Positions 31,893-37,323 of a stretch of 64,000 bases of DNA are shown here, piece after piece. Origin of the DNA: Gemmatimonadaceae bacterium (GTDB lineage: Bacteria; Gemmatimonadota; Gemmatimonadetes; Gemmatimonadales; Gemmatimonadaceae); the NCBI GenBank assembly GCA_020851455.1, contig JADZCT010000038.1, positions 1-64,000 on the forward strand, read 5' to 3'. Below the pieces are notes generated by a model. That model was given only the letters and a program-made list of their open reading frames with translations, was not told the origin of the DNA and did no database searches. Numbering within the stretch: position 1 is the stretch's first letter; each line of letters begins with the position of its first letter. Position numbers and translations under genes: made by a program.

Positions 31893-32714
31893 TCAGAGGA
31901 GCGTAACGGCCGCTTCGAGCAGGTCGCCGAGCCGCGCGGAGGCGACGCGTCCCGCCTCGATCACGTCTTCGTGGCGGACGGGTGCGTCGGTAATGCCGGA
32001 CGCGAGGTTGGTCACGAGGCTGATTCCGGCGAACTCGACGCCAATGGCCGCGGCGACGAGCGCCTCTCCCACGGTTGACATGCCAGTGACGTCGGCGCCG
32101 AGCGCGCGGAGCATGCGCACCTCGGCGGGCGTTTCGTAGGCCGGGCCCAGGAGGCCTGCGTACACGCCGCGCCGCAGCGGGCGGTTGCCAGCGGCCTTTG
32201 CAAGCAGCGACCGGAGGCGTGGCGAGTAGGCAGCCGACATGTCGGGGAAGCGCGTGTCGCCTTCCTCGAGCGTGCCCTCGAGCGGGTTTCGCCCGGTGAG
32301 GTTGATCTGGTCGTCAATCAGGACCAGGTCGCCCGGGGAAAGCGTAGCGTCAATGCCACCCGCGGCGTTGGTGGCGACCATTACCTTCGCGCCAAGCGAG
32401 TGGGCAACGCGAACCGGAAAAGCCGACGCGGCCGCCGGGTGGCCTTCGTACATGTGGAAACGCCCGGCGAAGACGATTACCGGACGTCCGGCAAGCGTGC
32501 CAGCCACGACCCTGCCCGCATGGCCCTGGACCGCGGTGTCGGGGAAGCCGGGAACCGAGGAATACGGGACTGACCGGGCGTCTGCCACGCGGTCAACGAC
32601 GGACCCGAGGCCCGACCCGAGGATGAGGGTCAGCAGCGGTTCGCCGATCCCGATGCGCGGCGCGATGACGCTGGCAGCCGCGCGCGCCGCTTCGTAGCCC
32701 CATGACGCGCTCAC
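31893..32714 (-). CDS. punA: Purine nucleoside phosphorylase (trimeric type)
   Basis: Splits inosine and guanosine to base and ribose 1-phosphate. The 273 residues match the class II trimeric PNPs: LILGSGLGSVVDR, VPGFPDTAVQGHAGR (phosphate and base region), FAGRFHMYEGH, VMVATNAAGGIDATLSPGD, INLTGRNPLEG, GPAYETPAEVRMLRALGAD and VGMSTVGE-type TGMSTVGEALVAA. The GTG start overlaps the add stop as GTGA. It is the last gene of a four-gene operon running from the double nucleotidase through adenosine deaminase, so it completes conversion of exported nucleotides to bases. Confidence 0.95.
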   Translation of the reverse strand: MSASWGYEAARAAASVIAPRIGIGEPLLTLILGSGLGSVVDRVADARSVPYSSVPGFPDTAVQGHAGRVVAGTLAGRPVIVFAGRFHMYEGHPAAASAFPVRVAHSLGAKVMVATNAAGGIDATLSPGDLVLIDDQINLTGRNPLEGTLEEGDTRFPDMSAAYSPRLRSLLAKAAGNRPLRRGVYAGLLGPAYETPAEVRMLRALGADVTGMSTVGEALVAAAIGVEFAGISLVTNLASGITDAPVRHEDVIEAGRVASARLGDLLEAAVTLL

Positions 32715-33763
32715 GCTGCCGCTCCCGCGTCGCGACGGAACGCAGCAATGGCGGCGTCGGCCTCGGCGACGAGCGCGCGGCGCTCGCGATCCGGCAGGAA
32801 CGCACCCTCGAAGCCGTAGCGCGCCACGCGGCAGACGTCGTCGAGGTTGAAGCCAAGCGAGGTGACCGCGTGCATGTACTCGTCGGTGAGGGTGGTGCAG
32901 CTCATCAGGCGGTTGTCGGTGTTCAGCGTGAACTTGACCCCGCGGTCGAGCCATTGGCGCGCGGGATGCGAGTCGTAGCCGGCGGCGGCGTGCGTCTGGA
33001 CGTTGCTGGTGAGGCATGCCTCGAGGACGATACCGCGTTCGGCGATCTCGTCGAGGAGGCGCGGGTCCTCACCCGAGCGCGTGCCATGGCCGATCCGCTG
33101 GGCGCCGCAGGCGTAGATCGCCTCGCGCACCGACTCAGGGCCGGTGCCTTCCCCTGCGTGGCAGGTGCATCCGATGCCGTGATCGAGCGCATGGCGGAAG
33201 GCCGCGGCGTGCGGCGCCGCGGGGTTCCCTGCCTCGCCGCCCGCGAGGTCGAAGCCGACGACTCCGCGCCCCGCATGGGCCACTGCCAGCCGCGAGAGGT
33301 CCATCGAGGTGGCGGGCGGCAGGTGGCGCAGCGAGCAGATGATGAGCCCGCTGCGGATCCCGAAGGCCGTGGTTGCGCGCTCCATGGCGCGGCGCGGCGC
33401 GGCGACGATTTCGTCGAGCGTGAGGCCACCGCGGAGGCTGAGCGCGGGACAGTAGCGGATCTCGATGTAGCGCACGCCGTCGGCGTGGGCATCTTCGAGC
33501 AGTTCCCACGTCACGCGCTCGAGTGCATCCGCACGCTGCAGCACGGCGAGGGTGATCTCGAAGCGCGTGAGGTAGTCCTCGAGGTGCCGGGCGTCGCGGA
33601 CCCACATGTGGTGCGCAAGCGCCTCCGGGCTCGATGCCGGCATCGTCACGCCCTGCTCGCGTCCGAGCTCGAGGAGCGTGCTCGCGCGGAGCGAGCCGTC
33701 GAGGTGGCAGTGAAGCTCGGCCTTTGGCAGGCGGCGGACGAGTTCGCGAGTGAGGGTGGTCAT
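32711..33763 (-). CDS. add: Adenosine deaminase
   Basis: Converts adenosine to inosine. The 350-residue amidohydrolase shows LPKAELHCHLDGSLR (first zinc ligands HxH), CTCHAGEGTG (third His and catalytic region), QRIGHGTR and LNTDNRLMS (final Asp). Length is typical. It overlaps its upstream neighbour (a 99-residue protein) and its downstream neighbour (PNP) by four bases each. Within this operon it supplies inosine to the phosphorylase. Confidence 0.96.
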   Translation of the reverse strand: MTTLTRELVRRLPKAELHCHLDGSLRASTLLELGREQGVTMPASSPEALAHHMWVRDARHLEDYLTRFEITLAVLQRADALERVTWELLEDAHADGVRYIEIRYCPALSLRGGLTLDEIVAAPRRAMERATTAFGIRSGLIICSLRHLPPATSMDLSRLAVAHAGRGVVGFDLAGGEAGNPAAPHAAAFRHALDHGIGCTCHAGEGTGPESVREAIYACGAQRIGHGTRSGEDPRLLDEIAERGIVLEACLTSNVQTHAAAGYDSHPARQWLDRGVKFTLNTDNRLMSCTTLTDEYMHAVTSLGFNLDDVCRVARYGFEGAFLPDRERRALVAEADAAIAAFRRDAGAAA

Positions 33764-34059
33764 GCCGGGCCGGCGCCGTCGCGTTCGTGAGCCGGCCCGG
33801 CAAGGATCTCGGGCGTGCGCATCGGGCCGGGCGCGCGGGGCGCACGGGACGACACGACGCGGAGCACGGCTCCGCCCGACACGAGGGTGTCGGAGGGGAC
33901 CGCGAGGCCGCGGCTGTCGGCGACGGCGCGCGTGCCCGCCTCCACCGCGTCGGCGAGGGCCGGGTCCGCGGCGCGAACTGCGTCGAGGAGGGTCGCGCCG
34001 CGGGGGACGTCAACTGGCGCGCCGTCAACGAACGCGCGAAGGGTTGCCGGCTCGCTCAT
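33760..34059 (-). CDS. Small predicted beta-grasp protein in a nucleoside operon
   Basis: A 99-residue protein that I do not recognise as a named family. The first 70 residues look like a beta-grasp fold: AFVDGAPVDVPRGATLLDAV gives a hairpin and helix, and LVSGGAVLRVVSS the closing strand. This resembles ThiS/MoaD-type or 2Fe-2S ferredoxin N-terminal domains. There are no cysteines and no C-terminal Gly-Gly, so neither sulfur transfer nor an iron-sulfur cluster is supported. It overlaps both neighbours by four bases (ATGA), so it is made in step with the double nucleotidase and adenosine deaminase. Coding is likely given this tight coupling. Confidence 0.65.
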   Translation of the reverse strand: MSEPATLRAFVDGAPVDVPRGATLLDAVRAADPALADAVEAGTRAVADSRGLAVPSDTLVSGGAVLRVVSSRAPRAPGPMRTPEILAGPAHERDGAGPA

Positions 34060-37000
34060 CGCTGCGGTACCTCGCGGATCCGGACGGTCGTATCGGCACG
34101 GATGATGCCTCCGGGCATCGTGCGGACGTAGTCAACCAGCGCGTCGAGGTCCACGATGCCCAGGTGCTCGGTTTTCGATTCCGCGTCGGGAATGCCCTGG
34201 CCGTCACCCCCGGTCGCCATGAAGTCGCTCATTGCGATGGTGTAGCGGCGGGCGGGGTCGAGGGGCATTCCGTCAACCGCGAGCTCGACGATGCGCGAAC
34301 CGCGCGGGCGCGAAGCATCGTATGCCAGCTCCGCGCCGCTCACGTGGGAGTTGACGGCGCGGCCTCCGACGACGCGCTCGAAGTAGGCGCGCAGCTCGTC
34401 GCCGGTCACGGTGATGCGAACGAGCAGGTTGCTGAATGGAGACACCTCGAAGAGCGAGCCGTAGGTAACGGATCCCGCGTCGAGGTTGGCGCGGATACCG
34501 CCGTTGTTCATCACGGCCACGTCGGCATGGGCCGCGGCGCGCTGGGCGTCGGCGATGAGGTTCCCGAGCGGGTACTGCGGCCCGGCGCGCCGGAGCGTGG
34601 CCGGAAGCTCTGCGATCGGGCGTGCAATGAGCGCCTGCACGGGCGACATGGCATTGGCGACGATGCGCGCGATGGCCGGGTCGGCGGGAATGGTGTCGGT
34701 CCCGACGAACACGACCGTCGGGTCGAGGCTGCCGCGGGCGGAGCGGTCGAGCGGCAGGTCAACATAGGCCACCGAGCGTCCGCTCGATCGCGCGCGAATG
34801 AGCGGCACGCCCGCGATGACGGCGGTGAACTCGTTGTGGAGGTGCCCACCCACGATGGCGTCAATGTTACCCGCGGCGGCGCGCGCGAGGTCGGCCATCT
34901 CGCCGTCGCAAGTCTGTGGGTTGCAGGACGCCCCTGCATGCGCGATGACTATTACGACGTCGGCTCCCCGTGCGCGGAGCGCCTTCGCGCGCGCGTTCAC
35001 GATGGGCGCGGGCGCGGGGAATCGGAGGTTCGCGACATTTCGCGCCATCGTGACCTGAGGCGTGCTCACGGTGGCGAGCCCGACGATCCCGATGCGGACG
35101 CCTCCGCGCTCGACGATCGTGTCGGCGCGGATCCACGGGACCGGGCGGCCGTCGGCGAGGGTAACGTTGGCGGCGAGCATTGCGTAGTTGGCGTCGCGCA
35201 TGCGCGCGCGGAGCGTATCCTGGCCCCAGTCGAAGTCGTGGTTGCCGATGGCCGCGGCTGCGTAGCCGAGGGCGTTGTAGAGCGCGACGATCGGGCGCCC
35301 GAAGGCGAGGTTCGACGCCGGCGTACCCTGGAACTCGTCGCCGCCGTCAACGAGCACCGACACGCAGCTGCCCGAGCAGCCTGCCTCGACGCGCTTGACC
35401 GCGGTGGCAAACTGCGCCGCCCCGCCGCGGAGCCCGGCGTTGCCGTCGGGGCGGGCCTCGAGCGCGCCGTGGAAGTCGTTCGTCGAGACGATGCGGAGGA
35501 CAGCGGGCCTGCCGCCCGGGCGGGCGGCAGGCGCGGCCGCTGCCGGCGAGCCGGCGGCAGAGCGCGCCGGGCTCTTCACGGCGTCGAAGTCCGCCTCGCC
35601 GTTCAGCGCCTGCTGAACCTGGGCTGCGAGCGAAGCCGGGAGCAGCCGCCACGACCGCGTGAAGTAGTCGGCGGGCCTGAGCGTTCCCCTGCGCGCGACT
35701 TCCTCGATGAGCAACTGGCGCACCTCGCGCTGGTCGTCGGCCACGACCGGAGCGCCGATGAGCATTCCGTAGCCGCCGGTTCCGCTCGCACGGTAGTTGG
35801 AGAGCGCGACGTTGAACGAGTCTGTGGCCGCGACCGGCCGCCCGCGCACGGCCAGTCCGACGATGCGCGAGCCGGCCGCGCGACCGAGGTCAACGTCGTA
35901 TGACGCGCCGACGACGACCTCGAAGTTGTAGCCGATGAACGCGGGGTCGGGCGCGGCCTTCGCGGCGGCGCCGCTGCCGGTGACCTTGTAATACTCGGCG
36001 CTGCGTTCGAGAAACGCCTTGAGCTGCGCGCCGGAGAGCCGGAGCACTCGGATGGTGTTGTCGTACGGATACAGCTGCGCGAGCCGCGCGGCTGTGATCT
36101 TGCCGGCAGGCATGCGGACGCGCGTCGAGAAGACCGCGGTGGACGCAAGATCCGCCCCGGTCGCGCGCCGCATCACCTCGCCGATGAAGTCAATGATGGG
36201 CGTGTCGGCCGTGCGCGAAGAGTCGGTGCGCCACGCGACGTCGGTGGTGCCGATCATCGTGTTTGCCCACGTGCGGGCAGCTTCATGGCCTGCCTCGACG
36301 GCCGCTACCACCGACGGATCTTCCCCGTGACCCGCCGCGCGCACGATCACGCCCCGTCTGGAAACCACGCGCCACCCCGGGCCGCTGCGCTCCATGCGCA
36401 GCGATACGATGGACGCGCTCGCGCCCCAGTTGCGGGGCTGCACGAGGAGGACGCCGTTGATGGTGGTGTCGGCGACCTCGCGATGGGAATGGCCGAAGAC
36501 GATCACGTCCACGTCTGGCACGTCGCGCGCGACCTCGGCCATGGGGTTCTCCGGGGGGATCCCGGCCACCGCCACGCCGCCGCCCGGGCCGCCGTCGAGC
36601 CCCGCGTGCGCGAGCACGATCACGACGTCGGCGCCCGCGGCGCGCGCCGCCCTGGCCTGAGTGCGCACCGACGCGAGAATGTCGCCGAGCGTCGCCTTGC
36701 CATCGAGGTTGAGCTTGTCCCAGACCATGGACCACGGCGTCGTCTCGCCGATCACGGCGATGCGAACCCCCTCGCGCTCGATCCACGCGACTGCGGGCCA
36801 CGCGGGCCGGCCGTCCAGCCGCGAGACGTTCGCCGCGACAACGGGGAACCGGGCTCCGGAGAGGGCGCGGTCGAGCGCGGGGAGGCCGTAGTTGAACTCA
36901 TGGTTCCCGAGGACGACGGCGTCGTAGCGCATCGCATTCATCGCGGCGACGATCGGGTTCGGGCCGCGCGCGTCCGTGCGCGAAGCCACGTACGCCACGG

Positions 37001-37262
37001 GCGTACCCTGCAGGAAGTCGCCGGCGTCGAGAAGAATCGTACCCAGCGGGAACGCGCGCCTCACCGAGTCAACGACGGTCGCAAGCCGGGCAAGGCCGCG
37101 GGCCGACTCGGCGGTGTCGGCGAAGTAGTCCCACCCGCGGATGTGGCCGTGCGTGTCGGTGGTTGATACGATCCGAAGGTCAACCGCCTGGGCGCCGGCC
37201 GGGCGCGGCGCCGCAGCGGCGAGAAGGCCTGCTGCTGCCGCGAGTGCGAAGGTGCGTCTCAT
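34056..37262 (-). CDS. Tandem double 5'-nucleotidase, secreted
   Basis: A 1068-residue exported protein holding two complete 5'-nucleotidase units. Unit 1 (about 30-560) has TDTHGHIRG, LLDAGDFLQGTP, GNHEFNYG, IVLAHAG and VFGHSHRE, then a 5-nucleotidase C domain. An Ala/Pro-rich linker leads to unit 2 (about 590-1065) with TNDFHGALEARPDGN, DGGDEFQGTP, GNHDFDWGQ, IAHAGASCN and VGGHLHNEF, then NNGGIRANLDAGSV. Both metal sites look intact. It probably hydrolyses extracellular nucleotides or cyclic 2',3'-nucleotides to nucleosides. The start at 37262 follows a TAATTT box by seven bases; a TTG at 37271 falls inside that box. First gene of the salvage operon. Confidence 0.9.
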   Translation of the reverse strand: MRRTFALAAAAGLLAAAAPRPAGAQAVDLRIVSTTDTHGHIRGWDYFADTAESARGLARLATVVDSVRRAFPLGTILLDAGDFLQGTPVAYVASRTDARGPNPIVAAMNAMRYDAVVLGNHEFNYGLPALDRALSGARFPVVAANVSRLDGRPAWPAVAWIEREGVRIAVIGETTPWSMVWDKLNLDGKATLGDILASVRTQARAARAAGADVVIVLAHAGLDGGPGGGVAVAGIPPENPMAEVARDVPDVDVIVFGHSHREVADTTINGVLLVQPRNWGASASIVSLRMERSGPGWRVVSRRGVIVRAAGHGEDPSVVAAVEAGHEAARTWANTMIGTTDVAWRTDSSRTADTPIIDFIGEVMRRATGADLASTAVFSTRVRMPAGKITAARLAQLYPYDNTIRVLRLSGAQLKAFLERSAEYYKVTGSGAAAKAAPDPAFIGYNFEVVVGASYDVDLGRAAGSRIVGLAVRGRPVAATDSFNVALSNYRASGTGGYGMLIGAPVVADDQREVRQLLIEEVARRGTLRPADYFTRSWRLLPASLAAQVQQALNGEADFDAVKSPARSAAGSPAAAAPAARPGGRPAVLRIVSTNDFHGALEARPDGNAGLRGGAAQFATAVKRVEAGCSGSCVSVLVDGGDEFQGTPASNLAFGRPIVALYNALGYAAAAIGNHDFDWGQDTLRARMRDANYAMLAANVTLADGRPVPWIRADTIVERGGVRIGIVGLATVSTPQVTMARNVANLRFPAPAPIVNARAKALRARGADVVIVIAHAGASCNPQTCDGEMADLARAAAGNIDAIVGGHLHNEFTAVIAGVPLIRARSSGRSVAYVDLPLDRSARGSLDPTVVFVGTDTIPADPAIARIVANAMSPVQALIARPIAELPATLRRAGPQYPLGNLIADAQRAAAHADVAVMNNGGIRANLDAGSVTYGSLFEVSPFSNLLVRITVTGDELRAYFERVVGGRAVNSHVSGAELAYDASRPRGSRIVELAVDGMPLDPARRYTIAMSDFMATGGDGQGIPDAESKTEHLGIVDLDALVDYVRTMPGGIIRADTTVRIREVPQR

Positions 37263-37323
37263 CGTGAACAAATTACCCCGGCCGCGGCAGGACGTGCGAG
37301 GTCGCCCGTGCTAGTATTCGCCT

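Follow-up and report, generated by a model that had tools for sequence, protein, structure and literature searches.

A small protein with a predicted ubiquitin-like fold is probably an accessory component of nucleoside recycling in soil bacteria

The analysed window is a stretch of 64,000 nucleotides from a Gemmatimonadaceae bacterium (contig JADZCT010000038.1). It contains four consecutive salvage genes on the minus strand. They encode, in the order of transcription, a nucleotidase-like protein of 1071 aa (34056..37271), a small protein of 99 aa that is the subject of this study (33760..34059), an adenosine deaminase (ADA) of 350 aa (32711..33763) and a purine nucleoside phosphorylase (PNP; 31893..32714). 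The ATG of the small gene shares the tetranucleotide ATGA with the stop codon of the upstream nucleotidase gene (34056-34059), its own stop codon shares a second ATGA with the start of the downstream ADA gene (33760-33763), and the GTG start of the PNP gene overlaps the ADA stop codon within GTGA. All three junctions are 4-bp overlaps, which are typical for operon genes with translational coupling.

We verified the identity of the neighbours by Pfam and NCBIfam searches. The deaminase matched Pfam A_deaminase (2.5e-96), scored above the cut-off of the adenosine deaminase equivalog model TIGR01430 and, by inspection, carries the zinc and active-site motifs HCHLDG, HAGEG, GHGT and NTDN. Taken together with the barrel of a fused homologue described below, which is 35% identical to mouse ADA, this identifies the partner of the small gene as a true ADA. 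The NTDN site, which holds the substrate-binding aspartate pair, varies among relatives: it reads CTDGWL or CTDSWL in some relatives resembling family f2 (ADA of loci L132 and L117) and NTDG in the fused ADAs of f2, and a change in ADA specificity is possible. The PNP matched Pfam PNP_UDP_1 and exceeded the cut-off of the purine-nucleoside phosphorylase equivalog model NF006054. In the nucleotidase, Pfam 5_nucleotid_C and Metallophos each matched two stretches, NCBIfam nucleotidase models matched without exception below their cut-offs, and the N-terminus appears signal-like by inspection (MFTMRRTFALAAAAGLLAAAA). Its product is probably an exported two-module 2',3'-cyclic-nucleotide phosphodiesterase/3'-/5'-nucleotidase-like protein. 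The two metallophosphatase/nucleotidase modules are arranged in tandem; the nucleotidases of the Acidobacteriota loci discussed below have one full module and, in some cases, a second nucleotidase C-terminal match.

Spurious ORFs are abundant in GC-rich DNA, and we therefore judged the reality of the small ORF by its conservation. Homologues were present in 17/17 genomes of the same genus that were searched (57-70% identity) and were also widespread across the host family and order. A search with a profile built from our alignment A1 detected homologues in 153 of the 298 genomes of the phylum Gemmatimonadota, usually one per genome. Ten comparisons of relatives gave dN/dS values of 0.05-0.24 between close species pairs. 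The small gene is real and under purifying selection; the initial annotation, which had been made from the sequence alone, had given its coordinates and length exactly and had named conservation in relatives as a test, which the gene passed. The window protein carries ~18 additional C-terminal residues (33763-33816), ending in LAGPAHERDGAGPA, that its relatives lack.

An AlphaFold2 model of the window protein, built from an 11-row alignment, has the order beta-beta-alpha-beta-beta (strands at residues 6-11, 14-19, 44-47 and 65-70; helix at 24-41). The mean pLDDT was 82; averaged over blocks of 10 residues it reached 92-96 across residues 11-60, and confidence was low in the tail beyond approximately residue 72. 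The core comprises residues 5-72, followed by a C-terminal tail that is variable in the family. The best match in a fold search was the TGS domain 3hvz (Z 8.8 over ~63 residues, rmsd 1.9), with the SpoT/RelA type of TGS domain next (Z 8.7 for SpoT, ~63 residues, rmsd 1.8-1.9) and complex-I ferredoxin domains tied with TGS at Z ~8.4. The top matches being beta-grasp domains, the model supports the beta-grasp (ubiquitin-like) fold that had been proposed from the hairpin and helix in the sequence. D48 is invariant in both phyla in which the family was found (alignments A1 and A7) and opens the conserved turn D48-S-R-G51 of the beta3-beta4 hairpin, encoded at 33907..33918 on the minus strand. By their place in the predicted fold, the invariant or near-invariant residues D48, G21 and G63 look like turn formers. 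The conserved residues in the alignments include no catalytic set.

NCBIfam holds no family for the small protein, and Pfam gave matches below cut-off only. The best of these for the window protein was Fer2_4 (PF13510; E 0.0057), covering the N-terminal hairpin and helix; TGS (PF02824) reached 12 bits, short of its cut-off at 22.2, and matched weakly in 5 of 35 family members, with a best E of 0.018. As both scores lie below the cut-offs, we filed the protein in neither family. Matches to a viral X protein and others were put down to composition noise. When the A1 profile was searched against PDB sequences, its top matches were confined to the first hairpin in the 75 kDa subunits of complex I, at E 0.008 or worse.

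These similarities bear on whether the protein might be a sulfur or ubiquitin-like carrier of the ThiS/MoaD type, or a 2Fe-2S ferredoxin domain of which a remnant without cysteines is left. The Fer2/Fer2_4 domain of complex I (NuoG/NDUFS1) resembles it in the hairpin and helix and in overall fold, and ThiS, MoaD and ThiS-like proteins (PF14453) are likewise small stand-alone beta-grasp proteins from metabolic operons; one Acidobacteriota homologue matched PF14453 with an E of 0.0018, below cut-off. However, the window protein has neither a cysteine nor a terminal Gly-Gly, as had been noticed at the outset, and a conserved cysteine is absent across 35 homologues, so that the four ligands of a 2Fe-2S site are missing. 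The C-terminal tails are not conserved, and the ones read all lack a final GG, the terminus of ThiS/MoaD/ubiquitin-type carriers. Ferredoxin and carrier roles are therefore disfavoured. Moreover, the annotations of the neighbouring genes include no E1-like or sulfur-transfer gene. We regard this explanation as very improbable: a working carrier or ferredoxin is largely refuted, and descent from one would be possible.

We then compared the surroundings of ADA genes in the window genome and its relatives. The small gene lies directly upstream in 37 of 44 main ADA loci and accompanies none of the five remote ADA-like genes in the same genomes. The seven main loci without it belong to families f3 (four loci, one of which, L049, begins at a contig end and has a short upstream side), f2 (two) and f1 (one). 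A further 80 genomes carry the small family; in 77 of these, its gene precedes ADA by 33-122 bp on the same strand, and the exceptions are one genome with the matches on different contigs and two without ADA. One ADA gene (G016; L083:7172-8213) was found as two pieces in different frames with overlapping query ranges, which suggests a frameshift or an assembly error. Coupling between the small gene and ADA is thus very strong but not strict, and ADA is the most frequent partner of the family in Gemmatimonadota. The initial annotation had described the coupling to ADA and the nucleotidase as strict, which is too strong: seven main ADA loci lack the gene and two genomes, G220 and G245, retain it without ADA, which does not fit an obligate ADA subunit.

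In 12 loci the small domain is fused in frame to the N-terminus of ADA. Mapped on a 63-row tree of ADA, fusion requires three changes, located in one clade of f2, in the two f7 genomes and in one f1 genome. This repeated fusion argues for a functional and probably physical association with ADA. In a structural model of a fused protein, the N-terminal beta-grasp domain is well folded and the ADA barrel is of the usual kind (Z 48.6 to mouse ADA). Since the ADA part is an ordinary barrel, the small module is an addition and not a missing piece of ADA. The linker region (66-70) had a pLDDT below 50 and the pTM was 0.81; the model therefore supports no docked pose of the beta-grasp domain on ADA.

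The fusions also bear on the possibility that the protein, like TGS domains, which have been described as RNA-binding (PMC1949818), binds RNA and autoregulates the mRNA of the salvage operon. TGS is the closest fold, shared with SpoT/RelA, ThrRS and OBG-type GTPases. Yet fusion to ADA at three places of the tree indicates a role with the enzyme, and the TGS score lies far below the Pfam cut-off. The family differs from TGS also in its partner, which is ADA or a nucleotidase, and in occurring as a stand-alone protein as well as a domain. We consider RNA binding improbable.

An ADA barrel with an extra N-terminal module, as in the fused homologues, is known from ADA2/ADGF and from Cad1 (CARF-adenosine deaminase). 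In ADA2/ADGF this module is a PRB/dimerisation domain and not a beta-grasp domain. The module of Cad1 is a Rossmann CARF domain instead of a beta-grasp domain, and Cad1 is an antiviral ATP deaminase. Its activation by cyclic oligoadenylate has been described, and its CARF domain controls the ADA barrel (PMC11645235). By analogy, the beta-grasp module might bind a purine nucleoside or nucleotide and switch ADA on or off. Such allosteric sensing would fit the existence of ADA barrels with N-terminal sensor domains, the presence of Cad1 chains among our fold-search matches and the closeness of the fold to the TGS domains found in SpoT/RelA, which are regulated enzymes. On the other hand, the family shows no pocket-like set of conserved residues beyond the turn glycines and D48, and it is kept in the two genomes without ADA. 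We therefore treat ligand sensing as a rather unlikely, though not negligible, refinement.

In those two genomes, ADA was not detected, G220 being assembled as a single 5.5-Mb contig. The small gene lies there directly before the genes for a CNT-type Na+-dependent nucleoside transporter (L093:6019-7404 and L214:7474-8856) and PNP. Many f2 relatives likewise have a CNT gene, placed between those for ADA and PNP, and the operon of the window's own family has none.

Using profile re-searches, we found homologues in 12 of 396 Acidobacteriota genomes. The Gemmatimonadota and Acidobacteriota groups are homologous by hhalign (97.5%, E 5e-12). All 12 Acidobacteriota homologues are encoded just upstream of a UshA-like nucleotidase, within operons for nucleoside salvage. 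The initial annotation had proposed looking for the same neighbour in other genomes; this neighbour is ADA in Gemmatimonadota and the nucleotidase in Acidobacteriota. The loci read further were of two types: one continues from the nucleotidase with thymidine kinase, then a protein of the Metalloenzyme superfamily resembling phosphopentomutase, and finally PNP; the other continues with uridine kinase, a phosphoribosyltransferase and ADA. In two loci (L201:6094-6300 and L202:6181-8466), the small domain and the exported nucleotidase share one open frame. Translated as one protein, it would place the beta-grasp domain in the cytosol, ahead of the membrane segment of the nucleotidase. Both frames contain an internal ATG, a possible start of the nucleotidase alone, and because it is preceded by a ribosome-binding-like GGAG, the fusion may not be made.

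The ADA-less CNT/PNP loci, the Acidobacteriota loci and the open frames with the nucleotidase together suggest that the family belongs to nucleoside salvage generally. ADA cannot be its sole partner, since the gene is kept without ADA before CNT and since the neighbour in Acidobacteriota is the nucleotidase. The persistence without ADA would be accounted for if the protein were a tether linking transporter, nucleotidase and ADA: it might hold cytosolic ADA near CNT or the membrane end of the nucleotidase, where adenosine would be passed on after import. Consistent with this are the CNT within the operon in many f2 relatives, the position beside CNT and PNP where ADA is gone, and the adjacency to the nucleotidase in Acidobacteriota, twice in one frame ahead of a membrane segment. 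The lack of CNT in the operon of the window's family and the GGAG and internal ATG of both open frames speak against it, and we rate tethering as unlikely, somewhat more so than ligand sensing. The sensing and tethering explanations are both refinements of an accessory module acting on ADA, and the present data do not separate them.

Four phyla were searched for the family. Besides Gemmatimonadota and Acidobacteriota, these were Krumholzibacteriota (80 genomes), where the profile gave weak matches only (best E 9.9e-4), and Myxococcota (282 genomes), also with weak and mostly partial matches (best E 4e-5). The Krumholzibacteriota match was rejected; it sits within a larger protein resembling a glycosyltransferase. 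A scan of 80 ADA loci from many phyla with the fused alignment found the small domain in Gemmatimonadota loci only. In the open-access literature, we found no paper linking adenosine deaminase with the TGS domain, and papers containing both 'adenosine deaminase' and 'beta-grasp' had other subjects according to titles and abstracts. Titles and abstracts of the matches listed for ADA, Gemmatimonadetes and purine salvage likewise did not reveal the association, and the main texts of the principal beta-grasp surveys (PMC1949818, PMC1779556) mention neither deaminase nor nucleotidase. Within the open-access literature and the few phyla covered, the fold is known, and the small family and its association with ADA appear to be undescribed.

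We conclude that the small protein is best explained as an accessory module with a beta-grasp fold and no catalytic role, which binds ADA and exerts its effect by protein contact; we assign this reading a probability of roughly 0.55. The overlaps on both sides, the adjacency in 77 of 80 genomes, the 12 fused loci and the absence from all five remote ADA-like genes support this reading. In Gemmatimonadota, the small protein would be made together with ADA and would most likely bind it; where the two are separate chains it would do so as a subunit, and in the fusions as a linker-attached N-terminal domain. There it would most likely serve as a scaffold or modulator of ADA, working by contact rather than through a chemical reaction or covalent attachment, in a putative pathway leading from the nucleotidase, in some cases via a nucleoside transporter, to the deaminase and the phosphorylase. 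Of the roles first suggested (regulator, carrier or subunit), regulator and subunit are consistent with the adjacency, the 4-bp overlaps and the fusions at three places; carrier was lost with the missing conserved tail and Gly-Gly. More tentatively, and with clearly less confidence than in the ADA module itself, the family may comprise beta-grasp adaptors for nucleoside salvage that bind ADA and a second partner, CNT or nucleotidase, and so couple adenosine uptake to its first processing, with ADA under the control of a ubiquitin-fold protein.

Textbooks present adenosine deaminase as an enzyme of one chain. If our reading is true, some bacteria regulate or scaffold ADA by means of a conserved partner that has repeatedly joined the enzyme. 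The natural fusions make this partner hypothesis directly testable. It would assign a function to an unnamed family spread over Gemmatimonadota and some Acidobacteriota, in which a small ubiquitin-fold protein is probably a helper part of the nucleoside-recycling pathway.
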